From IMG/VR virus record IMGVR_UViG_3300047367_000320, positions 1-23,189 of that record: a stretch of DNA of 23,189 nt; one strand, 5' to 3'. The notes beneath the pieces were generated by a model. It did no database searches, had not been told where the DNA came from, and worked only from the letters and a program-made list of their open reading frames with translations. Positions 559 to 22,125 of the stretch are shown here, piece by piece (the first letter of the stretch is position 1; each line of letters starts with the position of its first letter). The position numbers were made by a program, and so were the translations under genes. This stretch comes from a virus.

Positions 559-1299
559 ATGAACATTGATAAAATAAGAAAGAACATAGTTGGGGACTAT
601 GGATTAGCTTCTTCAAATCAATATCATATTTCGTTTGAACTTATGGATCCCGTTCGTAGTAATACGGATGCAACTCTGTCATCATATATGTTTAATAGAG
701 GGTTTTTGATGGAAGGTGCTAGTTCACCTGAATTCTTTGGACAGAATGATACGGCAGTTAATAATGCAATTAAGTTAAGTTTTTTGGCAGATGAAGTTAA
801 TATTCCAGGTTATAGTGTTGCGACTGGAGATTTCAAAGGACCTGTTCCTGGCATTAATATTAGATATGCTCATACCAAGAATTTCTCTGAAATGAATATT
901 GCATTTTTGATGGATATGGATCATACTCCATTAAAATTTTTAAGATTGTGGTCTGATTTTATATTTGGGTTTGAAAGTTCTCTAGGTGTAAATTCTGGCA
1001 CAATTACGCCAACAATTTATTCGCAGATGCAATATTATAATAATTATACCAAAGATATTATTATTGACAAATTGGAACCAAACACTAGTTCTAGAACAAA
1101 ATTTTCAGCAAATAGTAGTTATGATACTCATAATGTAGTTACAAGAACCCGACTTCATAATGCATACCCATATATGATTAATGATCTTACTGTAAGTAAT
1201 GCACCAAATCAACCAATGAGATTGCAAAGTACATTTTATTATGAGTATTTTACGACAGAAACTTTAAGAAGAAATCAGGTAAATGACCTTAAGCAGTGA
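559..1299 (+). CDS. gp48: Tail-tube-like baseplate protein (gp48/gp54 type, tail tube cap or initiator)
   Basis: A 246-aa protein that is the first gene of the hub operon. It has the layout of tail-tube-derived baseplate proteins. An early beta-strand (QYHISFELMDP) is followed by a lipoprotein-like loop (DEVNIPGYSVATGDFKG), then IRYAHTKNFSEMNIAFLMDM and a helix with a conserved-looking tryptophan (FLRLWSDFIFG). It ends with a strand region (MRLQSTFYYEYFTTE). In T4, gp48 and gp54 cap the baseplate hub and nucleate tube polymerisation. Both have this fold, and I cannot separate them by eye. Cyanophages usually label the gene beside gp26 as gp48. The ATG at 559 has no good Shine-Dalgarno but lies 21 bases downstream of a late promoter motif. 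The family is fairly secure; the choice of gp48 over gp54 is tentative. Confidence 0.7.
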   Translation: MNIDKIRKNIVGDYGLASSNQYHISFELMDPVRSNTDATLSSYMFNRGFLMEGASSPEFFGQNDTAVNNAIKLSFLADEVNIPGYSVATGDFKGPVPGINIRYAHTKNFSEMNIAFLMDMDHTPLKFLRLWSDFIFGFESSLGVNSGTITPTIYSQMQYYNNYTKDIIIDKLEPNTSSRTKFSANSSYDTHNVVTRTRLHNAYPYMINDLTVSNAPNQPMRLQSTFYYEYFTTETLRRNQVNDLKQ

Positions 1300-1332: not shown

Positions 1333-2034
1333 ATGTCTTTACCATCTTTAAATACGCCAACGTATAATCTGACTATACCATCTACAAAACAGCGAATTAA
1401 GTATAGACCCTTTGTTGTAAAAGAAGAGAAAATTCTTCTCATAGCACTTGAATCTGAAAATGATCAAGAAATTGCAGATGCCTTAAAATCAATTATTACT
1501 GCTTGTGTAACTACAAAAGATTTTGATTTTAATAAACTAGCAACATTTGATATTGAGTATATCTTCTTAAATATTAGAGGTAAATCAGTTGGTGAAGTTA
1601 TAGATCTTCTTCTTACCTGTCCAGATGATGGTGAAACTGAGGTAAAGGTTAGTTTTAATATTGATGATGTCAAAGTAAAATTTGATAAGGAACATTCTAA
1701 TAAGATTCAAATTTCTAACGATCTTTGGGTGGAGATGAAATATCCAGGACTTGAAAGTTTCACTAATCCTCAAGAAAATATTGATGATGCTTTTAAGTTT
1801 GTCGCAAACTCAATTGATAAAATTTATAATGAAGAAGATGTTTGGGACAGTTCAACTACAACTGTTGATGAATTAGTAGGTTTTCTTGAAAATATGAGCA
1901 GTAAACAGTTTAATGATATTCAGAAGTTTTTTGAATCTATGCCTTCATTGAAGCATGAAGTAAAATTCACTAATCCAAATACAAAGGTTGAATCGAAGTA
2001 TGTTATTGAAGGACTTTCTAATTTTTTCGAGTAA
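1333..2034 (+). CDS. gp26: gp26-type baseplate hub assembly protein
   Basis: A 233-aa protein of the T4 gp26 baseplate family. The N-terminus reads MSLPSLNTPTYNLTIPSTKQ, and the conserved core includes YRPFVVKEEKILLIALES, FDIEYIFLNIRGKSVGE and a cysteine in LLTCPDDGE. T4 gp26 helps assemble the baseplate hub, and I infer a role comparable to the N-terminal half of siphovirus tail-assembly chaperones. A clear GGAG at 1321-1324 supports the ATG at 1333. The last codons before TAA (AAT TTT TTC GAG) hold a perfect -1 slippery heptamer, T TTT TTC at 2022-2028. A fraction of ribosomes could therefore extend the product into the gp51-like frame, giving a 295-aa fusion. Confidence 0.85.
   Translation: MSLPSLNTPTYNLTIPSTKQRIKYRPFVVKEEKILLIALESENDQEIADALKSIITACVTTKDFDFNKLATFDIEYIFLNIRGKSVGEVIDLLLTCPDDGETEVKVSFNIDDVKVKFDKEHSNKIQISNDLWVEMKYPGLESFTNPQENIDDAFKFVANSIDKIYNEEDVWDSSTTTVDELVGFLENMSSKQFNDIQKFFESMPSLKHEVKFTNPNTKVESKYVIEGLSNFFE
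2022..2028 (+). promoter_or_regulatory. -1 ribosomal frameshift site T TTT TTC
   Basis: The heptamer fits X XXY YYZ in the gp26 reading frame (AAT TTT TTC), two codons before the gp26 stop. In the -1 frame, a TAA at 2019-2021 closes everything upstream. The window in which a -1 shift could work is therefore only about 12 bases, and it contains the whole heptamer. Slippage leads into 63 codons ending at 2219. Confidence 0.75.
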
Positions 2035-2219
2035 GCCTCTTCCATAATTCTTTAGAGAATTATTATAGAACTAACTTTTCATTAATGCAACATCATAAGT
2101 ATAGTTTAACTGAACTTGATGGTCTTATTCCTTGGGAAAAAGATATATACATTGCATTATTGAAACAATATCTGGAAGAGGAACGACAAAGAATCGAACA
2201 ACAAAAACATCAAAGTTAA
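2028..2219 (+). CDS. gp51: gp51-like hub assembly segment, probably made as a gp26-51 frameshift fusion
   Basis: This -1 frame relative to gp26 encodes 63 residues, including NYYRTNFSLMQHHKYSLTEL and IPWEKDIYIALLKQYLEEE. The pattern of a helix, then SL-x-E, then PWE-(R/K)-D-IY, then YLxEE is what I associate with gp51-like proteins and with the distal half of tail-assembly chaperones. The first ATG in this frame is at 2085, giving 44 aa. It has no Shine-Dalgarno before it, and starting there would cut off the coherent upstream portion FHNSLENYYRTNF. I therefore infer that the segment is reached by -1 frameshifting at 2022-2028. The stop TAA (2217-2219) overlaps the ATG of the next gene, so translation is coupled. 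The alternative is independent initiation at 2085. Confidence 0.7.
   Translation, partial: RVSLFHNSLENYYRTNFSLMQHHKYSLTELDGLIPWEKDIYIALLKQYLEEERQRIEQQKHQS
2044..2063 (+). other. Hairpin downstream of the frameshift site
   Basis: ATAATTCT, a TTAG loop and AGAATTAT form a perfect 8-bp stem with a 4-base loop. It begins 15 bases after the slippery heptamer, further than the usual spacing for stimulatory structures, and it is AU-rich. Its role as a frameshift stimulator is therefore only possible. Confidence 0.4.
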
Positions 2220-4996
2220 TGAAATCAAAGCAAGTAGGATTAACAGAATATAATGACATCATCCTATCAGTGTATGATGCAAATCCTATTGTCAATGTTT
2301 CTAAGGCACTAACAAAGAACGCGCCTGAACCTAAGGCGACTACTAAGAAAGCAAACCCTAAAACTGGAACACTTGTAAAAGAAACTCTTCGTCTTAGAAA
2401 TACTGCAGTTTTAAATCTAAAACTTGCACAGAATATATTTAAGTATGAAAAGAGTAGATTATCTAGTTTAAAACCATACTTAGATGGAGATAAAACTTCA
2501 GAAGTAGAAGATGGTAAGAGTGAAGAGGAAGAAGATGAAAATAAGAAGAAAAAGAAAAACTCTAGATGGTTAAGGAATCTTGGTAGAGGATTAAGAAGAT
2601 TAATTAAGAAACTCTTTAAGAAACTAGTTCCTAAAGGAGTTAGGGCACGTGGTAGATTATTACGTAAAAGAATAAACAAGTTTAAGAGAAGAGTAAAAGT
2701 CAATATTAAACGACAGTGGAGAAAATTTACTAAACCATTTAGACAAGCAAGAAGATTTACTCAACCATTTAGACGTAATGTTGCAACAAGATTTAGAAGA
2801 TTAGGAAGAAATCTTGGTAGACCATTTAGACAAGGAAAAAGATTTGCTCAAACATTAGTTAGAGATCCTAGAAGAGCACTGCAACAAACTCAACGTGCAT
2901 TTGGTCAAGCGAAACAATTTGCCTCTGCTGGCATGGCAACAGCAAGACAATTTGCTGGGAATAAGATTAATCAAACAAGAAAATTTGCAGTTAGTGGATA
3001 TAATGAAGTAAGATCTGGGGTAAACTTTGCCCGTGATATGTTAGGTCGTGCTGGATTTAAAGGTCCTAAATTACCATCCCTTGGTGGCGGTGGCGGAGGA
3101 GGATTTTTTGGTAGATTTACTGGAATGGGTGAAAAATTTAAACAAGGTAAAAATGCTTTTTTAGGTGGTCTTGATGCTGTTACAACTTTTGGTGGTAAAG
3201 TAGTTAAATCAGTTAGTGCTACAGTTGGTAGATGGAAAAATGTTTTAACTGATCCAAAAACTTATGCATCAATTAAAAATGGAGCAGCTACAGCATGGAA
3301 GAATGTAAAGGGTGCGACAAAAAAACTGTATGATGATTTCTTTGCTTGGTTAGCAGGCACACCCCAGTTTAGGAAGTTAATAGAAAGTAAAATTGGTAAG
3401 AAAATAACTGAAAAAATAATACAAAAAGGTGGTAAGAAAGTATTAATAAAAATAATAGGTAGGATGGTTGTTGGTCTTGCCACCGTCTTAGCATTATGGG
3501 ATATGGTAGTGAGATGGACTGAAGGTGATTATGAGGGTGCTGCTATTGCTGCTCTTAGTGCTATTCCTGTTGTTGGATTAATTGCTGTTGTTGTTGATAT
3601 TTTGAGGGATTTATTTCCAAAATCTTATGAAGGTATGGTAGCCCAAATTACTGGGATGAATAAAGATGAGAGAAATGCAGGTATCAAATCTGGGGTTGAC
3701 ACAGCAATCACTCCTATGGAGAATGCAGGGGGTAATGATATTGCCGGTGTTCCCATGGCAGCAGATGGCATGGTTACTGGTAATACACCACAACTTGTTA
3801 TTGTTGGAGATGGTGGAGAAGAGGAGTATATTGTTCCCAAAAGTAAACTTTCATACTTCCTTGGATCTGATACCGCACTTGACTTTTTAAATTTTGGAGG
3901 ATCGCAATTACTTTCTACAGTAAAAGATTATATCAATAAAGCAGGTCTTGGAAGTCAGGCATCTAGTATTAAAGAACTTGCAGTTGCCAATGATTTGCCA
4001 TATGCAACTACTAATAACGTTAAAGGCATTTCACCTGCAGAAGTACGTACTGGTAATATTGCTGAGAAAATTTTAGAGTTTCTTCGTGAAGGATTTGAAA
4101 GTATTTTAGAACCAATTAAGGGAATATTTAATTGGGTAAAAGAGAATGTACTTGACAATCCAATAGTCAAAGGTCTTGGTGCTATAGGTGCTCATATATT
4201 TGGTGGGAGTCCTGCTGCTGCAGCAACGATGGATAGATTTAATCTTGATTTATCAGGAATGTCTGCAGATGGAGTATTTAATACAAAAATGAAAACTGGT
4301 AAATCAGCATATATTGGTGGATCTTCTGATTACCACATTGACACTAAATTTAATGCTTCTCTTTCTATGGAAGAAAAGGTAGCAATGATGGATCAACTTG
4401 CAGCAGGATATGCTGCTCAAGGTAGAAAGATTGAATTCTCTAATGATATGATTGCCAATACAGTATATGATCCTAATGCTTCTATGGAAGAAAAGAGTGC
4501 CCTATTACAAAGAGCATTTGAAGCACATAATCTTCCTAGAGGACGTGCTATTGATCAAGGTGGTTTCAATAGTATTGATTACTATGCTCCTCTCATGGGA
4601 GAAAATAGATTTGGATCTAGTGTAGAAGGTCATGATATTCTTATTCCAACTATTGGTGGTTCCAAGGTAAACTATGCTAAAGGAGGAGGGTATGGTGGAT
4701 ATATTACACTAACAGATGATCAAGGAAGAGTTGTTTTAAAAACAGGTCATGGTGATTCACGAACTGCAAGATCAGGAAGTGTTGATGTATCAGCACTAAA
4801 TAAAGATGATGCAGTAGGTGAAGATCCTGGTGACATGGATAACAATATCTTTGCACAAATGTTACAGAGACAGATTGCTCAGAAGCAAAGTACACAAGTC
4901 CCTCAGGTTCTTCCTATTCCGATTGGATCAGGATCTTCTATTAATATAATACAAAAGAATACTCCAGCATGGGGTCACGCAGTAATAGGTAACTGA
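2219..4996 (+). CDS. Tape-measure-like large hub/tail protein with cationic amphipathic and membrane segments
   Basis: A 925-aa protein if it starts at 2219, where the ATG overlaps the previous stop (TAATG). The in-frame ATG at 2132 would overlap the gp51 segment heavily and is less likely. Order of segments: a helical N-terminus; an acidic run then a lysine run (about 96-113); a strongly basic amphipathic region (about 114-215) with FR-Q-x-R/K-RF repeats; a glycine run (about 289-295); a hydrophobic region able to cross a membrane (about 409-463); then LVIVGDGGEEEYIVPKSKL (526-544), which resembles the GE-x-GPE-x-(I/V)-P motif near the end of many tape-measure proteins. The C-terminal 220 residues contain HIDTK, GHDILIP and GYGGYITL. 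Size, position and hydrophobic segment suggest a tape measure or an ejected hub protein. I cannot prove which. Confidence 0.6.
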   Translation: MKSKQVGLTEYNDIILSVYDANPIVNVSKALTKNAPEPKATTKKANPKTGTLVKETLRLRNTAVLNLKLAQNIFKYEKSRLSSLKPYLDGDKTSEVEDGKSEEEEDENKKKKKNSRWLRNLGRGLRRLIKKLFKKLVPKGVRARGRLLRKRINKFKRRVKVNIKRQWRKFTKPFRQARRFTQPFRRNVATRFRRLGRNLGRPFRQGKRFAQTLVRDPRRALQQTQRAFGQAKQFASAGMATARQFAGNKINQTRKFAVSGYNEVRSGVNFARDMLGRAGFKGPKLPSLGGGGGGGFFGRFTGMGEKFKQGKNAFLGGLDAVTTFGGKVVKSVSATVGRWKNVLTDPKTYASIKNGAATAWKNVKGATKKLYDDFFAWLAGTPQFRKLIESKIGKKITEKIIQKGGKKVLIKIIGRMVVGLATVLALWDMVVRWTEGDYEGAAIAALSAIPVVGLIAVVVDILRDLFPKSYEGMVAQITGMNKDERNAGIKSGVDTAITPMENAGGNDIAGVPMAADGMVTGNTPQLVIVGDGGEEEYIVPKSKLSYFLGSDTALDFLNFGGSQLLSTVKDYINKAGLGSQASSIKELAVANDLPYATTNNVKGISPAEVRTGNIAEKILEFLREGFESILEPIKGIFNWVKENVLDNPIVKGLGAIGAHIFGGSPAAAATMDRFNLDLSGMSADGVFNTKMKTGKSAYIGGSSDYHIDTKFNASLSMEEKVAMMDQLAAGYAAQGRKIEFSNDMIANTVYDPNASMEEKSALLQRAFEAHNLPRGRAIDQGGFNSIDYYAPLMGENRFGSSVEGHDILIPTIGGSKVNYAKGGGYGGYITLTDDQGRVVLKTGHGDSRTARSGSVDVSALNKDDAVGEDPGDMDNNIFAQMLQRQIAQKQSTQVPQVLPIPIGSGSSINIIQKNTPAWGHAVIGN

Positions 4997-4997
4997 T

Positions 4998-7457
4998 ATG
5001 GCAAGAGATCCTAAGGTATTAAGAAAGGCATACGAAGCCAAACTTGGCAAGAAACTTGCTGACCAACTTACTAATGAACAGATTGGTCTTATCTCTAAGT
5101 ACTATAATTCTTTGAGTGATTCAGAGTCGAGTGCTCTCGATAGTAAGATTATTCAAGGAAGAAATAATACTGAACTGCATGAAATGGCAGAAAGTTTTAT
5201 TGCCGAAAAAAAGGATAGTGGTGGTGGAACAGTTTCTGTATACAAACCTGAAAATAAATTTGCTGATGATAAGATTGAAGAACTTGATGAGAAGTTAGAA
5301 GGAACCTCTGACAAGATTATGGATGCAATTGATGAACTCATTGCAGCAGATAAGAAGAAGTTTGAAGATTTTAAAAAGAAATCAGCGCAGGAAGTAAAGG
5401 GTAAATTCCAATATGAGAAACCTATTGGTCCTCAAGCGATGCAGGGACCAAAGCAACCTCCTAAGAAAACAGTTTCTCCTGAAAAAGATGAAGATTGGGA
5501 AGGTGAGGTTGAGGATCAACTTGGTAGTAAATTAGATGATGTTCTTGAGCAGGTAAGAAATGAACCTCTTCCTCAACCTGCTAAAACTAAAAGAAGAAAA
5601 ACTAAGGGTAAGAAAGCACTTCAGAGAAAAAATGCTAGAATAGATGCCAAAGAGATGGGTGTAGGTGCATCTCTTACTGAAATTATGACGAATGTTGTTG
5701 AAACTAGAGTGGCATTATTTGATCTTTATAAAATTACAAAGGCAAGATTTGAATTTAAAAAGAAAATTGATAAAAAACTGACAGGTGCTTTACAGGCAAA
5801 ACTTAGAGAAAAGCAGATAGAAAAACCTGCAGGTGCTGATGAAAACTTAAAACCTGGTGAAGAGAAAGAAGAAAAGAAGAAAAGGAAAAAGAATGTTGTT
5901 GAAGAGGGATTGATAGCATCTATGGTTAGTGGTGCTGTATTGTTTTCACTGCCATTGGTGATTGAAGGATTGCGACCATTTCTTCAACGTGATAGGGAGA
6001 GTGAGGGAGAGAATCAATGGTGGGATTTCTTAGATGTATTTCCTAATGAAATTAAAAAAGATCTAGAGGAAGATCCTCCAGTACAACCTATTTCGGCAGA
6101 AGAAGAAGATACCGTACCTGCTGAATCTAGTTCCTCAGCGGCACCTACACCTGCTCCACAGGCACCTGTAACTCCTGTCGCACCAATTCCAGCACGTGAT
6201 ACTAATATTCCTGGTGATTCTGGGTATAAGGGTCCTTCTATGCCAATGAGGGCAGCTGCTCAAGGTGGTAGATTTACTGGAGGTCAGCATAAACCACTTA
6301 CTCCCCTTAGTCAAAAACCTAAAAGATCATCTCTTGTCGCTAAATTAACTAGACCTCTTAGTTCTGTAGTATCATTACCTCAGAAAGCAGCAGCTGCTGG
6401 TGTCTTATCATTTGCAAATAGTATCATTTCTCCATTCTCTGCCTTCATTCCAGATTCTGGTAGGCAGTTTATTCAGAATATTTACAGTGATGTTGCTAAA
6501 TCAACAGGACTATCTGGAATGAAGTTAGATTTCGGTAAAACTTCAGATATATTTGAACAGGTTAAGAAATTTATAGATAATATTCTTAAATCATTACTAG
6601 GTACAAGTGATGATGATCCTTCACCTGCTCCTGGTGAATATTATGGTCCTGGTTTTGGTCCTGGTCCTGGCGGCGGTATGACTGACCCAACTATTTCTGG
6701 TGATGAAAAAGAATACTTAATGCGTCTAATGATTGCTGAAGCAGGTGGTGAGGGTGAACTTGGAATGGCAGCAGTTGGAAGATCTGTTCTTAATAGAGCG
6801 GGTCTTATTCAAAGTGGGGAAGTTGGTGCTGGCACATTCATGTCAAAAAGCGGTAGTATTACCGATGTTATTGAAGGAAAGAATCAGTATCAACCATTTG
6901 CAGAAGGAAAACTAAAAAGAGGATTAACAGAAGGAGAGAGAGCAAGAGCAATGAAAGCACTTGAGATGGCACGTAACGAAGCATCATTACGTGCTAATCT
7001 AGAAGCATCTGGTATGGATGCTAGTAGTATTAACAATATTATGGCATCTACTGGATTTAGAACTCATTCTGCAAGGTATGATGGATCTCAAGATGTTAAT
7101 CCTACTAGATTAGGTGGACATCAATTTAACACTGCTGGTAATGCTAAAATGCTTACCCCTGGTGCTAAAGTAGAAACTGCTCCCGCTTCTCCAGAACAAC
7201 ATACTGTTCCTTTGAGTGAGATGCCAGATGAAAACTCATCACCAGAAGAATGGGCAGCACATTTTAGACGAGTTGATGCAATGGGTGCTAGACCGCCTGC
7301 CAGTCCACCACCTCCATCTGCTAAACCAAAGGTTGACCTATTACAGATGTTATCCTTCCCAACATCTCAACAGCAACAACAGCAACCAAAAATGTCTATG
7401 TTCACACCTCCATCTACTCAAATTGGACGTAGAGCACCTCAACAAACAGGAAGTTAA
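4998..7457 (+). CDS. Tail-associated protein with C-terminal SleB-like cell-wall hydrolase domain
   Basis: An 819-aa protein starting one base after the preceding stop. The N-terminal 300 residues are charged and helical. A membrane-type segment follows (about 304-322, GLIASMVSGAVLFSLPLVIE), then a Pro/Ala/Ser linker (about 372-400) and Gly/Pro linkers (about 540-562). Residues 567-715 look like a SleB/Hydrolase_2-type peptidoglycan hydrolase: EYLMRLMIAEAGGEGELGMA, AAVGRSVLNRAG, TDVIEGKNQYQPF, and a late GGHQF. The glutamate in IAEAGGEGE (E581) is the likely catalytic acid. The tail is low complexity (a proline cluster near 770 and Q790-Q796). I infer a virion lysin that opens the cell wall during injection, replacing the lysozyme that T4 carries in gp5. 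Tape-measure function is an alternative for the N-terminal half. Confidence 0.65.
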   Translation: MARDPKVLRKAYEAKLGKKLADQLTNEQIGLISKYYNSLSDSESSALDSKIIQGRNNTELHEMAESFIAEKKDSGGGTVSVYKPENKFADDKIEELDEKLEGTSDKIMDAIDELIAADKKKFEDFKKKSAQEVKGKFQYEKPIGPQAMQGPKQPPKKTVSPEKDEDWEGEVEDQLGSKLDDVLEQVRNEPLPQPAKTKRRKTKGKKALQRKNARIDAKEMGVGASLTEIMTNVVETRVALFDLYKITKARFEFKKKIDKKLTGALQAKLREKQIEKPAGADENLKPGEEKEEKKKRKKNVVEEGLIASMVSGAVLFSLPLVIEGLRPFLQRDRESEGENQWWDFLDVFPNEIKKDLEEDPPVQPISAEEEDTVPAESSSSAAPTPAPQAPVTPVAPIPARDTNIPGDSGYKGPSMPMRAAAQGGRFTGGQHKPLTPLSQKPKRSSLVAKLTRPLSSVVSLPQKAAAAGVLSFANSIISPFSAFIPDSGRQFIQNIYSDVAKSTGLSGMKLDFGKTSDIFEQVKKFIDNILKSLLGTSDDDPSPAPGEYYGPGFGPGPGGGMTDPTISGDEKEYLMRLMIAEAGGEGELGMAAVGRSVLNRAGLIQSGEVGAGTFMSKSGSITDVIEGKNQYQPFAEGKLKRGLTEGERARAMKALEMARNEASLRANLEASGMDASSINNIMASTGFRTHSARYDGSQDVNPTRLGGHQFNTAGNAKMLTPGAKVETAPASPEQHTVPLSEMPDENSSPEEWAAHFRRVDAMGARPPASPPPPSAKPKVDLLQMLSFPTSQQQQQQPKMSMFTPPSTQIGRRAPQQTGS

Positions 7458-9009: not shown

Positions 9010-11319
9010 ATGTTAGGCGCAGCACCTACATTAGAATCTAACTATTGGTTTGGGGCACAGGGTAACCGTCTTTGGGTAGGTCAGGTTGAAGGAGATGGGA
9101 GAACTCTCATCGATGGCACTGAATCTACTGATGAAGATGAATCCTTCCGTGTCAAAGTTAGGATTATGGGATATCATACTAGGAGTAGAGATCCACAGGT
9201 GGGTTTACCTTCTAATGATCTTCCATGGGCATCTGTAATGATGCCAACCACTGAAACTATTACTAGAGATGGTGCTGGTACTACCCATGGTCTAGAGAAT
9301 GGCATGTGGGTACTTGGTATGTTCATGGATGGAGAGAGTGCTCAACAACCATTAGTTATGGGTTCACTTGGTATTGTAGATAAAAGTCAACCATTTGAAG
9401 ATAGATTAGATTCTATTGGTGGTACTAATAACTATATCCCAACTGAGAAGGTATTAAAAACTAGAGATCAAAACAAATCTTCTGGGGGTCATGGTGCGGC
9501 AGGTCGTGGTAGTAAAAGAGGAACTACTAGTGATGCTGATCAGAGGCAATCTGATAATGAAAAGGTAACTCTTGCAGTTTCTAATGGAAAATGTGGACCA
9601 AGACCTGAGAATGAAATTTCTAGAATATTAGGAGACCTTTTTAAATTTCTTAGTAATCAAGAGAATGTTGGTGGATTGTTAGTTGATAAATTAACAGGTA
9701 ATATCACTAGAACTGCAGATATCATTACAGGATATTTTGGCAGATTAGCAAACTCTGTTAATGGTCTTTTAGGAGATATCAAAACACTTGTAGTTAATGA
9801 ACTTAAAAATCTATTTGAAAAGACACTTCTTCCTATAATCACAGCACTGTCGCCTCTTTCAAATGGTAGAGGGGTTGCAATCACTGCAGGGATGAAATTT
9901 TCTGAAGTATTATTTGAAATTATTAAATGTATTTTCCAAACTATTCTTGAGAAAGTATACAATCTTCTTCTTGACATCCTTACTACACTGGTTGAAGATG
10001 TCTTAAATACGGCATTTTGTCAGGTTAGTAATATCTTAAAGGGTATTGTTAAAGAAATTGAAGATGGAATTGGAAGTGCATTAAGTGCTCTCGGTCAGAT
10101 TACTTCACTAATTAGTGATTTTGGTGGTGCATTTAATGGTAATTTCTTAGCATCAATTGGTAAATTGATCTCAATGTTCTGTGATGGTGGTCTTTCATGT
10201 ATTTTAGGTATTGGAGATTACACTACTGGTGTTGGTGATCGACCAGACAATGCAGTTAATGCATTCTTTAATAGATTAGAAACTTTTGGCGGATTGCCAG
10301 ATTCAGTTAATACTGGTCTTTATGGATCGGATTCTTTCCTATCTTCAATCGATAGTATAGAATTGAGAGACAGTAATGGAAACATTGCTAAAGGAACTTT
10401 AGATTGCAGTAAAGCAACATCTTTTAATTTTCCTATGATCCCAAACTTATTCTTCACTGGTATTCAGAATGAATTAGATAAGTTTGTACTTAAAGGATCT
10501 CTTATTAATTATGAACCAGGATCTAGATCTGGTGGTAGTGGGAGTAGTTTTGGATCTGGTGGCGGTAGTGGCAGTGGTGGTAATAATTTTACTATGACTG
10601 ATGACATTTATCCTAAACCAAATTATGATAGCAGTAACCCAACTCCTTATGCAGTTCCAGTAATTAATTCTTATGGTCAAGTTGTTGGTGGGGTCGTAAC
10701 AAATCCTGGGTTTGGATTAGTTAATCCACCAAATGTCACTATATTCCCTGCTCCAGGGTGGGGTAGTGGAAGTGAAGTTATTTCTATTTTAGATGATAAA
10801 GGTGGAATCAAAGATCTTGTTGTAACAAATCCAGGTGGGGGTTATCCTTATTTTGATGGATCTGTTTCTAATTCTGAAATAGTATCTACTGATGAAAATG
10901 GAGATCCAAACTATGATAATATTCCTGGTATATTTGCCGATAATGGGTATTGGTTAGGAATTATTACTGACAATAGTCCACCTTTTGTTATAAAAAGCGG
11001 TGAGGGTTATGATGAAACATGTGCAATCATTGTAGAACCAGGAAAAAATGAAGAAAATGAAGTAGTTCTTCCAGAATTAAAACCGATTATTGAAAACGGA
11101 TTCCTAGTTGGAGTTCAAGTTGTTAAAGAAGGTTTTGGTTTTACTGATCTGCCTAAGATTTATATGTCTTGTGGGTCTGGAATTGGATTAGGTCAACAAA
11201 GAAAAGCAGTCATCAAACCAATTTTGAAATATATTCCTAGGAAAGATGCTAAGGATTATCTCAACAATTATGATGAATACAGAGAAATTATTGATTGTGT
11301 AGGACATCCAGGAGAATAA
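9010..11319 (+). CDS. gp5: gp5-like baseplate hub protein: OB domain, hydrophobic helical region, repeat C-terminus, no lysozyme
   Basis: A 769-aa protein. Residues about 20-120 form a gp5/VgrG-type OB-fold (FRVKVRIMGYHT, GLPSNDLPWASVMMP, LENGMWVLGMFMDG, QQPLVMGSLG), which forms the collar joining hub ring and spike. No T4-lysozyme-like sequence follows. Instead, residues about 200-405 are mostly hydrophobic and helical with several cysteines (307, 337, 391, 397). A Gly/Ser linker (about 504-525) leads to a C-terminal region of beta repeats built on GGVVTNPGFGLVNPPNVTI and DLVVTNPGGGYPY. GAGGA at 8995-8999 serves as the Shine-Dalgarno. The triple-helix spike is a separate gene immediately downstream. 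The OB identity is strong; the roles of the middle and C-terminal parts are unknown. Confidence 0.8.
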   Translation: MLGAAPTLESNYWFGAQGNRLWVGQVEGDGRTLIDGTESTDEDESFRVKVRIMGYHTRSRDPQVGLPSNDLPWASVMMPTTETITRDGAGTTHGLENGMWVLGMFMDGESAQQPLVMGSLGIVDKSQPFEDRLDSIGGTNNYIPTEKVLKTRDQNKSSGGHGAAGRGSKRGTTSDADQRQSDNEKVTLAVSNGKCGPRPENEISRILGDLFKFLSNQENVGGLLVDKLTGNITRTADIITGYFGRLANSVNGLLGDIKTLVVNELKNLFEKTLLPIITALSPLSNGRGVAITAGMKFSEVLFEIIKCIFQTILEKVYNLLLDILTTLVEDVLNTAFCQVSNILKGIVKEIEDGIGSALSALGQITSLISDFGGAFNGNFLASIGKLISMFCDGGLSCILGIGDYTTGVGDRPDNAVNAFFNRLETFGGLPDSVNTGLYGSDSFLSSIDSIELRDSNGNIAKGTLDCSKATSFNFPMIPNLFFTGIQNELDKFVLKGSLINYEPGSRSGGSGSSFGSGGGSGSGGNNFTMTDDIYPKPNYDSSNPTPYAVPVINSYGQVVGGVVTNPGFGLVNPPNVTIFPAPGWGSGSEVISILDDKGGIKDLVVTNPGGGYPYFDGSVSNSEIVSTDENGDPNYDNIPGIFADNGYWLGIITDNSPPFVIKSGEGYDETCAIIVEPGKNEENEVVLPELKPIIENGFLVGVQVVKEGFGFTDLPKIYMSCGSGIGLGQQRKAVIKPILKYIPRKDAKDYLNNYDEYREIIDCVGHPGE

Positions 11320-13367: not shown

Positions 13368-16300
13368 ATGGCATTAACACGACTTCAAAATATCATTTCA
13401 TCAGTAGAAGGTAGAATCATCTACGTCAATCCTGATGACTTTGACTCCACTGATGCAATTGATAATAAGGGCAATTCGCCAATTAGACCATTCAAGACGA
13501 TTGCAAGGGCAGTTCTTGAAGTAGCGAGATATTCATACGTCAGTGCAGGTAATGCTGACGATAAATTTGACCAGTTTACAATTATGTTGTATCCTGGTGA
13601 TCATATTGTTGACAACCGTCCTGGATCCTATGCATATAAACTTGATGGTAGTAATAATATTGTTCCTAATGTAGATGGTCAATTCACTGAACTTGCAAGT
13701 GAAGGTAATCTTGGATGGAGTAATTCTACTAAACAATACGCAGATCTTTTTAGAATTACAAATGCAACTAGGGGTGGATTGATTATTCCTAGGGGTGTCT
13801 CTATTATTGGTCTCGATCTTAGGAAAACCAAACTCAGACCAAAGTATATTCCTGGTGGTGGTAATAATACTGCAGCAAGCACTATTCAGGTAAACTTTGA
13901 TGTAAATACAGTCAATAGAACTCAAATTGTAATTAACAATTCGAGTGGTGGTGATACAAATTCATTTAATGATGTGTATGTTGGTTCTGTCTTTAAGAAT
14001 GGAATACAGGATGGAAGTGGATCTGATTTAATTTCACCTGGAACAACAATTACATCATTTGAAACTGCTCTTGGTGGTCAAACCTTCATTGCAAATATTT
14101 CAAAACCTCATGCATATTCTTCAAATACATCGGGTATTGAAGGAGCAATAAATGTTCCATTTGAAGATGATAATACAAGAACTGCTCTGTTTAGAATTAC
14201 TGGTGGTTGTTATTTCTGGCAGTTCTCTATTTTTGATGGAGATCCTAATGGGGTATACAATGCAAGTCCCGTAGTACCTACTGCTCATGATGTAGCATGG
14301 GACACTCCTGTTGCTCCATTCTATAGTCATACTAAACTTACTATCTTTGAATATGCATCATTGCATGATCTTCATGTATTCTATAGAAAAGTAGCAGATG
14401 CTGTCTTAACAGTTCTTCCTGATAAGATTGAACCTAAGATTCAGGAAAACAGAATTGTCGGTCCTCTTGCTGATAAAGTAGAAATAACTAAGGTTCAAAG
14501 AAATGCAGCTACAGTTACTATAACTCTTGCAGAAGAACTAAACTTAACTGCTGGTAATTTTATCTCCGTCAAAGGTAGTGGTAACTTTATTACAGGAAGT
14601 CCCAACACCAATGGATTCTACTCTGGTGAGAAGAGAGTATCTTCTGTTATCAGTAGAAGTCAATTTACTTTCATATTATCTCCAACAGAAGTATCAGGGT
14701 TGGATGTTTATGAGTCAAGTTCTGATGATGATAGTGATCCTCTAAATGGAACTCAAATTACGTATGAGGCATCAATTGGTTCTAGTGCAGTAGTAGAGAT
14801 TGAAATTGATACAGTTGAATCTGCATCTCCATATATCTTTAATATTTCTTTGAGATCCACTCAAGGAACGTGTGGGATGCACGCGGATGGTTCACGTGCG
14901 ACCGGATTTAAGTCCATGGTCGTAGCTCAATATACAGGAATCAGCCTTCAAAAAAATGATGAAGCATTTGTTACGTATAATGCAGGTTCTGGTCAATATG
15001 TTGCTGCAGGTGCTGGCGGACATACAGATATTAATGCAATTTATAAACCATCAGCAAGAAGTTACCACGTTAAGGCATCTAATCGTGCAGTAATTCAGGC
15101 AGTTTCTGTCTTTGCTGTTGGTTATGCTGACCACTTCATTGCTGAAGATGGTGGAGACATGAGTATTACAAACTCAAACTCCAACTTTGGTTCAAATTCG
15201 ATGAGATCCATTGGATTTAGTGATACTGCATTCGGTAAAGATGCTCTTGGTGAAGTTACCCACATCATTCCTCCAAGGAATATTGAATCTGCAGCAACTA
15301 ATGTTTATTGGGAATCTATTGATACCGTACTTACTCAATCGGTAGCAAATAATACTAGATTGTATCTTGAAGAAAGAACCGAAGAACTTGCAATCTCTGC
15401 TCCTGGATCAGGATTTACTGGAGGAGATTATGAGGCATTCCTGAATGGTTTTAGTACCGGAAAAAATCTGACTATTACTGTAAATAGTGGTGAAGTTGCA
15501 ACTGCAACCTTTGATAATGGTGATTATGGTAATTTGCAACCAGGAGATAAAGTAACTATAAATTCACCTACAAATGGTGGACTTCCTGCTGAAATTACTG
15601 TTGGTGGTAGTTTAACATCATTTGCTGCAGAATACAAGATTGGATACAAAACTCTTAATCAAAATGGTGTTTCTGAGAATGAACTTCTGTATGTTCCTTT
15701 ATTTGCAACTGGTCCAGCATTAGAACAGACAACACAATCATCAAGAATTGCTAGAGATCAAACTACTGGAAAAGTGTTTGAGTATGACTATACTAATAAT
15801 AATTGGTATATCAGAGTATCTAGTTCCTTTAACGACATTTATAGTGTTATAGTCAGTAATACTACTAAGTATGGTTCAGGAAAAATTGAATCAACCCCAA
15901 CATCATACATTACAAGAATTGTAGATGAAAGAATTGATGACGATAAAATCTTTAGATTGCGTTATGTAACTCGTCGTGGTCCAACTGGTACTATTCCATC
16001 ATTCCCACAGGCAGGTTATGTCATTCAACCTAAGAAGGGAAGTACAAGAGGTATTGGTGATAGATTCACTGATGCTGCAAACCTTTTGCTACTTAACAAA
16101 GAAGTTATGGCGGAAGATCTTGTAAGTAGATATAAGACATATATTGGAACTGGTTCTACCCCACCATTGCAAAGTGCTGCTGGTACGACTAGTTGTGAAG
16201 AAGATATCATTAGAATTATTGAAACTGTTGCATATGATTTAAGGTATGGTGGTAACGCTAGAAGTTATGATGGTGCTAATCTTTATACATCAGGAACAGG

Positions 16301-18722
16301 TGCAACTGGAATTACTGGTGAAAGAAGTGAGACCGTTCAAATGATTAACTCTGTATCAGCATTAAATGGTGGTACAGATCAATTTGATGGTTTGAAAATG
16401 ATGTTTAATAATGTCATCAACAATGGTGTTGTTGGAACAAGTGCAACTGGCGGTCCATCAGGAACAGAAAATGGTGTTAATGTTGGAGCAAAAGTATGGG
16501 GCAATTCACCAACAAACTTAACACCCGAATATATCGTAGGTGAAGAGCAATTAATTAATGTACTTGGTGGATGTACTAATGTACTTAGTGCTGCTGATAC
16601 GCTTTTGAATGTTTACACCACTGCTTTAGGTTCTGATTCTTCTCCAGGCAATCTTAGTGGTGTAACTAGAGTTACATATGATTCTACTAGATCGTCCGAG
16701 CAGGAAGGTGCCGAATTCTTTAACATCTATAATAAAATTAGTGGACATGAATATAATGATGTTTACTACATCTATGAAGTAGAAGAAGAACAAGCATTTA
16801 ATTATAATGAAGTAAATGATGTAGAAACACCAGGAATTTACTATCTGACTGTTCTTAAGGGATCTGTTTATATTAACGGTAGTAAGAGTGAGAGTGATAA
16901 TGCTCTTGCAGGTAATACATTTAAGTTTAGTCAAGAAATTACTGACTTGTATCCACAAATTGATATTGATAATGTTGTAAGTGATCCTATAATTGCAAAA
17001 AGTATTGCAGATCCAGTAATTATTGGTCGTGTTAATACACAAGACGGTACAAATGTAAACCCTGCAATAGATGCTAATAAAGAGTTTAGTATTACTAAGG
17101 AATGCCTTGCATACTTCTTAGATGAATATTTAAATAATGAAGTTGAATGGGATTGGAGTGGAGTAGGTGATAATACTGTAGTTCATTCAAGAGTTCCCAA
17201 TTTAAATTCTGGAAGCAATGGAAGTATTTTAACTTCGATGGAATCCAAGAGTGGTGGTAGTGAAGTAAGGAAGATTGATATTAATCCTAATGAATCTAAT
17301 TGGAGTATTGAAGTAGAACTTCGTAGACCATCTACTATTAGATCTGGTAACCATACATTTGAATACGTTGGTTTTGGACCGGGTAACTACTCAACTGCAT
17401 TCCCAATTAGACAGACCAAAGTTCTTAGTGCTGAAGAGCAAAAGTATTCTCAATCTCTTAAAGAAGCGGGTGGTATTGCATTCTATTCAGGTCTTAATTC
17501 TAACGGTGATTTGTATATTGGTAACACAGTTATTAATGCTGTTTCTGGTAAAACTACCAGTAACGAAATCAGTGAACTTACTACATTAACAATTAAGAAT
17601 AATCTTAATGTACTTGGAGGAACTGGAAATAGTATTGCATCAAACTTCCAAGGACCAACTAACTTCATTGGTAATATTAATGCTGATGGTGGTAAATATG
17701 TATTCTCTAATCTTCAGTTAAGAAACACTGCTGGATTTGTTAGCAAAATAACAAATGGAACTCTATCAACACTTCCAGTAAGTGCTACTAAGAGTGACAT
17801 TCAGTTAAATCTAGATCCAACTGATGGTGGACATGTTGGGCATGTTTACACTGAGCAACTTGAATGGAGAAAGTATGGTTTAGTTGGAACTGAAGATATT
17901 CATTCTTACAAGCACCCTGCAGTTAATGGACAGAGTGTTCATACTTTCCAGGTTGGTAGTCCTTTTGATTCTGATGCATACAATACTCAAACATCATATA
18001 ATTATCGTTACAATTTTGATGTAACTGAAAGTGCTAGGATCGGTAGTAGATTAAGTATCGGAACTACTGTTGGATATACTGGAGGATTTGAACTTTCTTC
18101 TAATACTGTAACTGGAAGAAAAACTAATTTGCACATCTCCAGTGATTGGACTGCAGAATCTAATCATCCATTGAAGACAGGTATTCTGTTATCATTGACT
18201 AATGCAGGTTCTGGTAAATACATCGATTGTTTAAATAGTAGCAATGCGAGTGTATTCAATGTTGATGAGGTAGGTAATGTTTCGATTCCAACAAACGCTA
18301 CTTACGGACTTTCTGCTAAAGCATGGTCCATTACTCTAACTGTAGTTTCTGGAGGAACTGCCGCATCTGGTTCTAATATTAGTTTCGGTACAATTGCTGG
18401 AAATTACTTCACTCTGAATGGAGTTGATGTTAATCAATATCAAGGATCTTCGTTAAGTGGTACATTTGTGCCTGGTAGTTCAGGTCAATCTGGAACCGCA
18501 TTTGTTTGGCAATCAACTGCTTCAATTGATTCAAAAACATTCTATGGTGCTCCAGGAGAACTTTCTCAATACAAAGGGAAATCAAATTCCGTTATGATCT
18601 TTATTAATGGTGTCATGCAAGACCCATTCCTTGATTCACATCTTGGTTCAGATGGTAAATTGTATTTCACTGGACAACCACAAGTTGGCGACGTAATCAC
18701 AATTCGTGGTTTCGCAACCTAA
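13368..18722 (+). CDS. Giant virion structural protein (1784 aa), beta-helix-type, probable baseplate/fibre component
   Basis: A 1784-aa protein starting MALTRLQNIISSVEGR, with a good AGGA Shine-Dalgarno. The first 350 residues (GRIIYVNPDDFDS, SPIRPFKTIARAVLEVARYS, FTIMLYPGDHIVDNRPG) have the style of a pectin-lyase-like right-handed beta-helix. A glycine-rich strand region around 500-620 contains ISLQKNDEAFVTYN and SITNSNSNFGSNSM. Residues about 900-1090 contain a helical module with DAANLLLLNKEVMAEDL and CEEDIIRIIETVAYDLRYGG. The C-terminus has NVLGGTGNSIASNFQGP and ends with SVMIFINGVMQDP and QVGDVITIRGF, typical of fibre and baseplate end domains. It is probably a peripheral baseplate or fibre protein of cyanomyoviruses. 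The exact T4 counterpart is unclear. No enzymatic residues are evident. Confidence 0.75.
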   Translation: MALTRLQNIISSVEGRIIYVNPDDFDSTDAIDNKGNSPIRPFKTIARAVLEVARYSYVSAGNADDKFDQFTIMLYPGDHIVDNRPGSYAYKLDGSNNIVPNVDGQFTELASEGNLGWSNSTKQYADLFRITNATRGGLIIPRGVSIIGLDLRKTKLRPKYIPGGGNNTAASTIQVNFDVNTVNRTQIVINNSSGGDTNSFNDVYVGSVFKNGIQDGSGSDLISPGTTITSFETALGGQTFIANISKPHAYSSNTSGIEGAINVPFEDDNTRTALFRITGGCYFWQFSIFDGDPNGVYNASPVVPTAHDVAWDTPVAPFYSHTKLTIFEYASLHDLHVFYRKVADAVLTVLPDKIEPKIQENRIVGPLADKVEITKVQRNAATVTITLAEELNLTAGNFISVKGSGNFITGSPNTNGFYSGEKRVSSVISRSQFTFILSPTEVSGLDVYESSSDDDSDPLNGTQITYEASIGSSAVVEIEIDTVESASPYIFNISLRSTQGTCGMHADGSRATGFKSMVVAQYTGISLQKNDEAFVTYNAGSGQYVAAGAGGHTDINAIYKPSARSYHVKASNRAVIQAVSVFAVGYADHFIAEDGGDMSITNSNSNFGSNSMRSIGFSDTAFGKDALGEVTHIIPPRNIESAATNVYWESIDTVLTQSVANNTRLYLEERTEELAISAPGSGFTGGDYEAFLNGFSTGKNLTITVNSGEVATATFDNGDYGNLQPGDKVTINSPTNGGLPAEITVGGSLTSFAAEYKIGYKTLNQNGVSENELLYVPLFATGPALEQTTQSSRIARDQTTGKVFEYDYTNNNWYIRVSSSFNDIYSVIVSNTTKYGSGKIESTPTSYITRIVDERIDDDKIFRLRYVTRRGPTGTIPSFPQAGYVIQPKKGSTRGIGDRFTDAANLLLLNKEVMAEDLVSRYKTYIGTGSTPPLQSAAGTTSCEEDIIRIIETVAYDLRYGGNARSYDGANLYTSGTGATGITGERSETVQMINSVSALNGGTDQFDGLKMMFNNVINNGVVGTSATGGPSGTENGVNVGAKVWGNSPTNLTPEYIVGEEQLINVLGGCTNVLSAADTLLNVYTTALGSDSSPGNLSGVTRVTYDSTRSSEQEGAEFFNIYNKISGHEYNDVYYIYEVEEEQAFNYNEVNDVETPGIYYLTVLKGSVYINGSKSESDNALAGNTFKFSQEITDLYPQIDIDNVVSDPIIAKSIADPVIIGRVNTQDGTNVNPAIDANKEFSITKECLAYFLDEYLNNEVEWDWSGVGDNTVVHSRVPNLNSGSNGSILTSMESKSGGSEVRKIDINPNESNWSIEVELRRPSTIRSGNHTFEYVGFGPGNYSTAFPIRQTKVLSAEEQKYSQSLKEAGGIAFYSGLNSNGDLYIGNTVINAVSGKTTSNEISELTTLTIKNNLNVLGGTGNSIASNFQGPTNFIGNINADGGKYVFSNLQLRNTAGFVSKITNGTLSTLPVSATKSDIQLNLDPTDGGHVGHVYTEQLEWRKYGLVGTEDIHSYKHPAVNGQSVHTFQVGSPFDSDAYNTQTSYNYRYNFDVTESARIGSRLSIGTTVGYTGGFELSSNTVTGRKTNLHISSDWTAESNHPLKTGILLSLTNAGSGKYIDCLNSSNASVFNVDEVGNVSIPTNATYGLSAKAWSITLTVVSGGTAASGSNISFGTIAGNYFTLNGVDVNQYQGSSLSGTFVPGSSGQSGTAFVWQSTASIDSKTFYGAPGELSQYKGKSNSVMIFINGVMQDPFLDSHLGSDGKLYFTGQPQVGDVITIRGFAT

Positions 18723-18753: not shown

Positions 18754-21700
18754 ATGGCGTTAACCAGAATTACATCGAATGTTATCAAGGATAACACGAT
18801 TGAAGAGGGTAAGTTTAGCAAACCTTATCTAGATTCTTCTAATGCGGATACAGCACAGCAGTCAATAACATTCCAGTCGAATGTAGATATTCAATCTGGT
18901 GCTGGTCCAGTTTATTTTTCTGCTTCTAATAGTTTATTAACTCTTACTGGAAGTAATGCAAATGCTTCCATTTTAAGCATTATTACTGGTGGAATTACCT
19001 TAGGTAATGGTGACATTACATTAGCAGAACCAGGTCGTAAAGTTGAAACTCCAATTTTGGATGTTGGGAATGGATCTACTAATAATCCTAGTATTTATTT
19101 TGGTGGAGTAACAGGAACAGGTTTTTATAGAACTGCAAATCCAACAGAATCTGTTAGTATTTCTATTGCTGGTGCTGAGGTTTTCACAGTAGAACCGGCA
19201 GAGTTTAAACTTGGAACCAATAACGTTAAGATTCTTACAACCGGATCTTCTTATACTCAAAGTATTGGATTTGACAGTGCTACAGGTTCTCTCACATATG
19301 GTTCTAGTAACGCAAAATTAGAATTAAAGGTAAATAATTCATCAGTTGTTTATGTAAGATCTGAAGATACTGGCGGCAATCCTTATGTTAATAATGAAAA
19401 TAGGGTAGGTATTAACACAGATAGTCCAGCAGCAACTCTGGACGTTGATGGAACAATTAGGGCAACTAATTTTCAAGGACCTTCTGGTGCAATTCCTACA
19501 GGGGATTTGCCTATTATTCCAATTACAAAAGGTGGTCTTAATATCAGCACTATTGGATCTCCAGGTCAATTGCTTCGAGTTAATGAAGCTGCTTCTGCAT
19601 ATGAATTCTTTGATCAATCAAGTGGAGACCCTAACAATTTAAAATCTTTTGGTGTTGCTGGTAATGGTACTCTGTTTACGGTAACCAATAGAGATACTGG
19701 TACTGCTAGTAAAGTTCGTTTGAAAATTTCTGATTCTTTATCATTTGCAGTAAATCAAGAAGTCAAAATATTTGGTTTAAATACAAAAAACTATTCAAGT
19801 TATGATCTTGATGGTCCTGCTGGATCTACATTTAACGGTTGGGCATCACTTATTGATAGCGAGCAATTAAACTTAATTGCTTCTCAGGGTCCTGCTGGTG
19901 GAGTTGTGCAATACACATATTATGCATGTTTGATGAATACAAAAACTGGATTAATTTCTAGTCCTAAAAAGTTAAAGCACGATGGACCACAAACATCTGA
20001 GTACGTTACAAATTATCCTTTAGGTAATTTTAATGAAACAATTTATAATACAGTTCCATTGAGAAGACCAGTTATTGGTGATCCTCATGCAATTCTTCTT
20101 TATAGAAGAGTTAATTATGGTGCAACAGATATTCCAGTATTTGATAGAAATGAGAATTTAGTTGTTGATCATAATGATAAAGTTAATTTAATTGCAATTC
20201 TTGGCAATAGAGATATCGGTGCCAGTACAACTGATAGTTTCACGTTTAATGATTATGGTCCATATGATAGAACAAGTTGGGGTGATTTTAACACTGATGG
20301 TACATACAACCAACAGTTCCAGGAAGTTGGTAATGTCCCATGTTCATTGTTGCTAAGTAATATAACTAAGAGAAAGGCACGTCCAGGTTGGTCATATAGG
20401 GTTGTTGATGAAATAGATTATGCACAGGATAAGATTACAATTTCAGATGCAACGGAATCTACAGATACTACAGATACTGCAATATTAAGTGCTTTAGATT
20501 TAAATGGATTTGATGGCAATAATAAAGGATTCTTTAATTCAGTGCAAGTATCACATGATGATACAGTTCCTTTACAAACTGCTATTGATGAGCAAGTAAC
20601 TAAAGGATTAAATTCTTTGTATGTTATTGGTGGAACTTATCTTGTAAGAAGGTTGGTTATTCCATCTTCATTCTCATTTGTTGGTTCTGGTAAGGCAACT
20701 AAAATCAAGAAGCAATATTTTGATACTGAATATCAAAAAACAACTGGAGCGTTAGAATATAGTAGATTCTATGCAGCATTGTGGATGAGAGATGGAACTA
20801 ATGCTCAAGGTGCAGCATCTGTTAGTGAATCTAAAGCTATTAAAGATGTTACCGTAAGAGATATGGTTATTGATGGTAATTATAATTCTCAGGCAAGATT
20901 GGGATTATCTACCACACCTCAAGCAAATGCTCTAATCTATTGTGAAGAAATTGAAAATGCAAATTTCTCAAGTTTAGATATTAAGAATTCTATTGGTGAT
21001 GGAATTTATGCTGAAACTTCAAATAGAATGTCAATTCAAAACTGCAGTATATTTGATAATTCTATTACATATGCAACATTTGATAGTCCACTTAATGCAA
21101 CTAATTCTACAGTATTAAAAGTTTCTGACTCTGCATTCCTTGCAACACCTGGACCAGTAGATATTACAACTTCTGAAGTTGTTGCATTTAATTCATGTAT
21201 TATTAGAAACTGTGGAACAGGACTTAGAATTTATGGTGCTAAGAGTGCAAATACTGAAAACAATTTAGTTCTTGGTCCAGACGACGAGTGGATTCCGACT
21301 GAGGATATCTATGATAGTGATTATAACTCAGTAAATATCATATGTTATAAAACAGTTGGTACTGGAACTAATGGTTCAATTAAATTCACCTTTGTTGAGG
21401 ACAATCTTGCTAAAGATTTAACAAATACAACTGTTTCTGCAACTGTATATAAAATTCTGGTTGATAATCTTGGTAATGAGACAATTATTGGTACTCTAAA
21501 TTATAGGCAGGATGGTAATCCTAGTAATCCAGAAATATCTGTTCTTGCTGCAAGTGTTTATGATGGAGATAATGGTGGAGTTCAAGTTCAAATTGTATCA
21601 GCTATTGATGCTAATGGAAATTATGAAATTTTCCCACAAATTGCTACACAGGCAGTTCATTCTATCCCATATAGAACCACATTAAGTGGTGGTTCTATTA

Positions 21701-22125
21701 GTAATAATTATAATTATCTTGCATATAGTGTTGTTGGCCAAGAGTCATTAGCAATTGGAGCTGCCAATGAGTATATCATTGATGGCGTAATTGATTATGA
21801 TTCAACCAATGAAAGATATCAAATTAAAATTGATACAGATGTTACATCTGATTTTGAAACAGGCGATTTAGTTACACTTAAAGAGCATGCTACAGCATAT
21901 GGATTGCCACAAGACATGACCGTTGTTGGTTTTGGATTTGCCGAGCAGTCATTTACATTAATCTTATCATTCACTGGAGGATTTAATACCTATCATGACC
22001 AGAACAATACTGGTAATGGTTGGAATCCTGCAACTAACGTCTTAACAATTGATGCAGGCGCTAGAGGATATATAGAAAAGAAAAGATCATTCACAATCGC
22101 AAAAGGTATCATAGGAGTCGAGTAA
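18754..22125 (+). CDS. Tail-fibre/baseplate-like protein with pectate-lyase-type beta-helix (1123 aa)
   Basis: A 1123-aa protein starting MALTRITSNVIKDNTIEEGK. The N-terminal 240 residues are repetitive strands (ITFQSNVDIQSGAGPVYFSA, SILSIITGGITLGNGDITLA) ending in VGINTDSPAATLDVDGTIRA, a segment common in fibres. Residues about 590-830 form a pectate-lyase-3-like right-handed beta-helix: PLQTAIDEQ, LYVIGGTYLVRRLVIPSSFS, VRDMVIDGNYN, SLDIKNSIGDGIYAET, CSIFDNSIT and CIIRNCGTGLRIYG. The remaining 280 residues are beta-rich. Receptor binding or polysaccharide recognition is plausible; catalysis is not shown. It has its own late promoter, and its N-terminus resembles that of the preceding giant protein in the first five residues. 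The ATG has only a distant AGGG upstream. Confidence 0.75.
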   Translation: MALTRITSNVIKDNTIEEGKFSKPYLDSSNADTAQQSITFQSNVDIQSGAGPVYFSASNSLLTLTGSNANASILSIITGGITLGNGDITLAEPGRKVETPILDVGNGSTNNPSIYFGGVTGTGFYRTANPTESVSISIAGAEVFTVEPAEFKLGTNNVKILTTGSSYTQSIGFDSATGSLTYGSSNAKLELKVNNSSVVYVRSEDTGGNPYVNNENRVGINTDSPAATLDVDGTIRATNFQGPSGAIPTGDLPIIPITKGGLNISTIGSPGQLLRVNEAASAYEFFDQSSGDPNNLKSFGVAGNGTLFTVTNRDTGTASKVRLKISDSLSFAVNQEVKIFGLNTKNYSSYDLDGPAGSTFNGWASLIDSEQLNLIASQGPAGGVVQYTYYACLMNTKTGLISSPKKLKHDGPQTSEYVTNYPLGNFNETIYNTVPLRRPVIGDPHAILLYRRVNYGATDIPVFDRNENLVVDHNDKVNLIAILGNRDIGASTTDSFTFNDYGPYDRTSWGDFNTDGTYNQQFQEVGNVPCSLLLSNITKRKARPGWSYRVVDEIDYAQDKITISDATESTDTTDTAILSALDLNGFDGNNKGFFNSVQVSHDDTVPLQTAIDEQVTKGLNSLYVIGGTYLVRRLVIPSSFSFVGSGKATKIKKQYFDTEYQKTTGALEYSRFYAALWMRDGTNAQGAASVSESKAIKDVTVRDMVIDGNYNSQARLGLSTTPQANALIYCEEIENANFSSLDIKNSIGDGIYAETSNRMSIQNCSIFDNSITYATFDSPLNATNSTVLKVSDSAFLATPGPVDITTSEVVAFNSCIIRNCGTGLRIYGAKSANTENNLVLGPDDEWIPTEDIYDSDYNSVNIICYKTVGTGTNGSIKFTFVEDNLAKDLTNTTVSATVYKILVDNLGNETIIGTLNYRQDGNPSNPEISVLAASVYDGDNGGVQVQIVSAIDANGNYEIFPQIATQAVHSIPYRTTLSGGSISNNYNYLAYSVVGQESLAIGAANEYIIDGVIDYDSTNERYQIKIDTDVTSDFETGDLVTLKEHATAYGLPQDMTVVGFGFAEQSFTLILSFTGGFNTYHDQNNTGNGWNPATNVLTIDAGARGYIEKKRSFTIAKGIIGVE

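Follow-up and report, generated by a model that had tools for sequence, protein, structure and literature searches.

The question raised by this locus is whether a gp26-type chaperone gene and the small gp51-like reading frame that follows it are two genes, or one gene from which ribosomes make a short and a long product by slipping back one base on a T TTT TTC heptamer next to the gp26 stop codon. The locus lies in a 23,189-nt stretch of DNA from an uncultured marine T4-like phage (IMG/VR record IMGVR_UViG_3300047367_000320). The whole stretch is called the window below, and an earlier note on this DNA had proposed the second reading. Vladimirov, Gautam and Davidson are said to have reported, in 2022, frameshifting in several T4-like groups and separate genes 26 and 51 in T4. 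In passages of two papers, Vladimirov et al. are credited with poly-T -1 frameshift signals in the TAC-N genes of T4-like phages (PMC12846349) and with T4-like phages that have separate short and long form genes (PMC10885494), and a passage of the Atkins review (PMC5009743) describes G-T frameshifting as conserved in long-tailed phages except T4. The portions of the PRFect, GeneTack and Atkins papers covered here mention neither cyanophages nor baseplate genes. The frameshifted type of chaperone is already known for T4-like phages, and the locus in the window is a newly identified, well-supported case of it.

The gp26 3' end and its heptamer

The features of the locus are collected in Table 1. 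The gp26 gene (Pfam PF12322, E 2.3e-67; phrog_150, E 1.9e-70) ends with AAT(2020) TTT TTC GAG TAA(2032-2034), just as the earlier note had read it. The room for a shift is also bounded as claimed, with a -1 stop codon (TAA, 2019-2021) and the heptamer directly after it at 2022-2028; the overlap of the two frames holds here an in-phase heptamer of the X XXY YYZ type, the single plus-strand copy of TTTTTTC in the window. A fusion made at this point has the proposed length of 295 aa, of which 232 are encoded by gp26 and 63 by the -1 frame. From the heptamer the -1 frame is open to the TAA at 2217-2219, a stop overlapped by the ATG of the next ORF (TAATG), and positions 2022-2219 translate in this frame as FFRVSLFHNSLENYYRTNFSLMQHHKYSLTELDGLIPWEKDIYIALLKQYLEEERQRIEQQKHQS*.

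Table 1. Coordinates of the gp26 locus and its neighbours in the window.
Feature	Positions	Strand	Remarks
Tail tube protein gene, 5' neighbour of gp26	559-1299	+	PF23849, E 3.8e-16; phrog_45, E 8.9e-28
gp26 / TAC-N, short tail-assembly (baseplate hub) chaperone	1333-2034	+	zero frame, 233 aa
Candidate upstream stimulator, SD-like GAAGGA	2008-2013	+	ends 8 nt 5' of the heptamer; correlative only
TAA closing the -1 frame directly 5' of the heptamer	2019-2021	+	read from the sequence; limits the shift window
Slippery heptamer T TTT TTC	2022-2028	+	in phase with gp26
TAC-C (gp51-like) domain	2028-2219	+	-1 frame, 63 residues after the shift; phrog_634, E 3.2e-29
8-bp AU-rich hairpin, ATAATTCT TTAG AGAATTAT	2044-2063	+	unsupported as a conserved element
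In-frame ATG of a 44-aa 'gp51', gene-caller start	2085-2087	+	judged not to be a real start
925-aa ORF, candidate tape-measure protein by position	2219-4996	+	adjoins the end of the -1 frame

No family match was found for the 925-aa ORF in the window, nor any BLASTP similarity to the tape-measure gene of HTVC008M; in HTVC008M, phiN3 and SynMITS9220M01, the long genes 3' of the gp26-gp51 pair match tape-measure PHROGs. Other long ORFs of the window include one of 819 aa (4998-7457) with a cell-wall hydrolase/endolysin-like region close to its C-terminus (phrog_34252, E 1.6e-57), one of 769 aa (9010-11319) that matches baseplate hub/tail lysozyme families (phrog_1922, E 3.2e-78) and, less strongly and in its central part, tape-measure families, and one of 1123 aa (18754-22125) without any PHROG match, which adjoins a 1784-aa tail fibre gene (13368-18722).

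The heptamer of the earlier proposal proves to be conserved across relatives. The comparison covers 342 usable related loci, which are gp26 relatives from viral contigs and phage records. In 336 of them an in-phase T TTT TTN lies no more than 60 nt from the gp26 stop, and in 330 no more than 15 nt from it; the heptamer reads TTTTTTC in 288, TTTTTTT in 25, TTTTTTA in 22 and TTTTTTG in one. In a set of relatives, the -1 stop is found 13-55 nt 5' of the gp26 stop. As background, an in-phase T TTT TTN is seen at only 16 of the 63,840 other gp26 codons of these loci, and none of the 389 other Phe-Phe pairs in gp26 genes is written as T TTT TTC. The occurrence of the heptamer near the gp26 stop far exceeds chance.

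A run of this kind might also be slippery for RNA polymerase, which could stutter on the Ts and make a message that is already in the -1 frame; the site is a homopolymer run, and the run extends to T8 in Pelagibacter and Methylophilales phages. However, the run in the window consists of six Ts followed by a C, position 7 varies between C, A, G and T among the loci without disturbing the X XXY YYZ phase, and the upstream SD-like bias described below would act on ribosomes. Transcriptional slippage is moreover inefficient on such short runs, which counts against it here, and we regard this explanation as extremely unlikely.

Coding in the -1 frame and the internal ATG

We used the -1 product as a tblastn query and matched 565 phage records, 552 of them at a query coverage of at least 80%, and among the matches listed all begin at residue 1 of the product, upstream of the ATG. 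When a profile of the -1 domain was applied to the 342 loci, 339 gave the domain in the -1 frame and none gave it in the zero frame; one locus (L354, indel-like) gave it in the +1 frame. In each of the 130 non-redundant loci, the -1 frame stays open for 58-75 codons and the zero frame closes within 2-10 codons. Stop codons after the end of gp26 and ahead of the ATG, which the earlier note had said would refute a fusion, are absent from the -1 frame of all 130. From the heptamer to the ATG, the -1 frame has a pN/pS of 0.25, as compared to 1.44 for the zero frame and 1.89 for the +1 frame (868 pairs), so that this part of the -1 frame is, judging by its substitutions, under purifying selection. 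With its low pN/pS and its open frame, the region is therefore coding where a fusion predicts it to be, and where an independent start at the ATG does not. The amino-acid conservation 5' of the ATG that the proposal implied can be seen both in this ratio and in the starts of the tblastn matches listed. Pfam gives no match to the -1 domain above its curated cut-off; the domain is predicted to be helical, one helix spanning residues 11-25.

The same frame could instead be a separate short gene, gp51, that starts from the internal ATG (2085) by reinitiation or translational coupling and is never fused to gp26. Public annotation favors such a gene, as the -1 domain is a small separate CDS (with varying starts) in 13 out of 17 phage records and is joined to gp26 in none (it is missed in the other four, ACG-2014e, AS-yj, allotria and Sa157lw), and many loci have an in-frame ATG at codon 21-22. 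Purifying selection, however, starts directly after the heptamer, about 20 codons 5' of the ATG, and the ATG itself varies in position and is missing from codons 1-30 in 8 of the 130 non-redundant loci. SD-like 4-mers are found ahead of an ATG/GTG in just 25 of the 130, and the SD energies ahead of the most frequent ATG codons average -1.1, similar to those of random gp26 sites (-1.9). In the window, the ATG at 2085 lacks a Shine-Dalgarno sequence, as the earlier note had stated (duplex energy of +0.2 vs -5.9 kcal/mol before gp26), and a start at this codon (residue 22) would cut the predicted helix 11-25. A separate gene also leaves the heptamer unexplained. The -1 frame is coding and has no conserved independent ATG or SD, and we consider a start at 2085 without any fusion to be very unlikely.

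Comparison with T4 bears on the nature of the two parts. The gp26 profile aligns with T4 gp26 (hhalign E 1.3e-17 over 203 columns) and with residues 11-201 of T4 gp51 (E 1.3e-10), the -1 domain aligns with residues 200-246 of T4 gp51 (E 1.5e-6) and gives no alignment with T4 gp26, and T4 gp51 covers positions 13-280 of phrog_150 but T4 gp26 only 14-235. T4 gp51 thus contains both domains in one frame and T4 gp26 lacks the second, i.e. T4 has one gene for the short form and another for the long form (genes 26 and 51, on opposite strands). The locus in the window has the make-up of a T4-like TAC-N/TAC-NC pair, its N domain being homologous to T4 gp26 and its C domain to the C-terminal part of T4 gp51. 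That a gp51-like pattern begins before the ATG, as had been noticed earlier, agrees with the selection 5' of the ATG. T4 gp26 and gp51 are described, in a passage of a review (PMC3004832), as hub assembly chaperones, gp51 being absent from the final particle.

The identical one-frame architecture of T4 gp51 would also fit a decayed or sequencing-split gene, in which gp26 and the -1 part derive from a single gene and their separation reflects an artefact or a pseudogene. Yet the break is found identically at the heptamer in 336 loci, including isolate genomes, and the -1 part is under purifying selection, contradicting a split gene; the probability of this explanation is close to nil.

Reading the pair as one frameshifted chaperone would correct the annotation in hundreds of cyanophage genomes and would account for the tiny 'gp51'. 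The -1 domain is present without an annotated CDS in L096 (Aeromonas phage AS-yj, 3732-3896), L087 (ACG-2014e), L098 and L099.

Loci without the heptamer and candidate stimulators

Some departures from the heptamer rule are only apparent: L118, L144, L163 and their relatives keep the heptamer and have the zero-frame stop about 30 nt further 3'. In the marine loci L118, L144, L163, L164, L166 and L178, the zero frame continues for about 8-9 codons beyond the heptamer, and gp26 gains a short extra tail. The true exceptions are Ackermannviridae (ATT TTC), Vibrio phage K452 (CTT TTT) and the loci L104 and L354, both of which look like sequence errors. The gp26/-1 layout is kept without a canonical heptamer in the Ackermannviridae loci L095 (3790-3965), L098 (3790-3965) and L099 (3727-3902), which read GAG ATT TTC ATT TAA, and in Vibrio phage K452 (L092, 3705-3905), which reads ACG CTT TTT GCG TAA. 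Since these lineages share the layout, T TTT TTN cannot be a strict requirement throughout the wider family. In Ackermannviridae and K452, the long form might arise from a single-tRNA slip on Phe codons.

The earlier note had also pointed out a hairpin at 2044-2063. The hairpin exists, its 8-bp stem being perfect and closing a TTAG loop, but it is unsupported as a conserved stimulator, because pairs are lost without compensation. Relatives down to 66% gp26 identity have lost 1-4 of the 8 pairs and distant ones more, and no compensatory changes in this hairpin were seen in relatives with 61-93% gp26 identity. Conserved N-S and E-N-Y codons determine most of the arm sequence, and the wider region has little or no folding advantage over shuffled sequences (z of -0.29 for 101 nt and -1.61 for 52 nt). 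On average, folding 3' of the heptamer is stronger than in synonymous recodings (mean z -1.23 +/- 0.16, n = 122 loci), with stems that differ between lineages; the window's own 3' fold is ordinary in this respect (z -0.56). A single conserved downstream hairpin was tried as a candidate in an ungapped alignment of the 122 loci and rejected (best stem 0.31 vs a row-shuffled null maximum of 0.305).

Upstream of the heptamer, GARGG with a 9-nt spacer is found in 107 of the 130 non-redundant loci. The Glu codon of this motif is GAG in 68 of the 107, as compared to 29.6 expected from the gp26 usage of each locus (the GAG share before Gly elsewhere is 32%), and synonymous recoding gives a mean z of -0.65 +/- 0.11 for SD-likeness at the site vs 0.04 +/- 0.11 at control Glu-Gly sites, all of these being statistics over related sequences that are not independent. 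A conserved Glu-Gly could itself yield an SD-like element; the codon controls argue for extra selection, and the SD-like GARGG is a better-supported candidate stimulator than the hairpin at 2044-2063. We consider it possible, although short of probable, that the shift is driven by the SD-like sequence 9 nt upstream, in a dnaX-like manner and with no common 3' RNA structure, and that the heptamer-less lineages (Ackermannviridae and K452) use another slip. If true, this would be a 5'-stimulated tail-chaperone frameshift. No account of the upstream SD-like bias or of the heptamer-less lineages was found in a literature search that covered Vladimirov et al. 2022 through papers citing it, and the conservation data make the stimulator question accessible to reporter testing.

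Proposed mechanism and comparison with known systems

The frame of the C domain, the heptamer, the lack of a conserved start and the architecture of T4 gp51 together support the frameshift reading. On these comparative grounds, the locus very probably uses a programmed -1 ribosomal frameshift to produce two forms of one tail-assembly chaperone. As for the shift itself and its efficiency, we infer that the majority of ribosomes would terminate at the gp26 stop codon, producing the short form (TAC-N, 233 aa), and that a minority would slip back by one base on T TTT TTC (2022-2028), with tRNA-Phe in the P and A sites, and continue in the -1 frame to give the 295-aa long form (TAC-NC), which would carry the added, presumably helical, gp51-like domain. 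If lambda gpG/gpGT is taken as the model, the tape-measure protein may be covered by a large number of short chaperones and a few long ones, whose added domain may recruit the tail tube subunit; these binding roles are putative.

The gpG/gpGT analogy, drawn already in the earlier note, is backed by gene order and by the two-domain T4 gp51, and weakly by fold. In lambda, according to a passage of the Atkins review (PMC5009743), ribosomes slip by -1 close to the end of a chaperone gene that sits between the tail tube and tape-measure genes, which yields a short and a long isoform. The gene in the window comes after the tail tube gene, and tape-measure matches of the 3' gene are seen in the relatives only. 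Unlike lambda/HK97-type phages, the phage in the window is contractile and T4-like, its chaperone is larger (233 aa), and its heptamer is T TTT TTC, where lambda has G GGA AAG. The window chaperone has no detectable sequence similarity to lambda-type chaperones (Pfam and PHROGs return T4-type families only), and a profile search of PDB chains with gp26 and the -1 domain returned no chaperone and no meaningful match. For the predicted gp26 model (pLDDT 88.5), the HK97 chaperone 2ob9 has the highest probability (0.51) among the PDB matches listed, a weak match with a non-significant E of 2.2.

In Escherichia coli dnaX, an SD-like element is located about 9-10 nt upstream of the heptamer, and the window also has an SD-like element upstream of an in-phase homopolymeric heptamer. 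The window differs from dnaX in that it has no conserved downstream hairpin and that its shift would give a longer fusion, whereas the shift in dnaX gives a truncated form. T4 arrived at the same short/long pair using two genes (26 and 51), whereas the phage in the window has one gene and a proposed shift.
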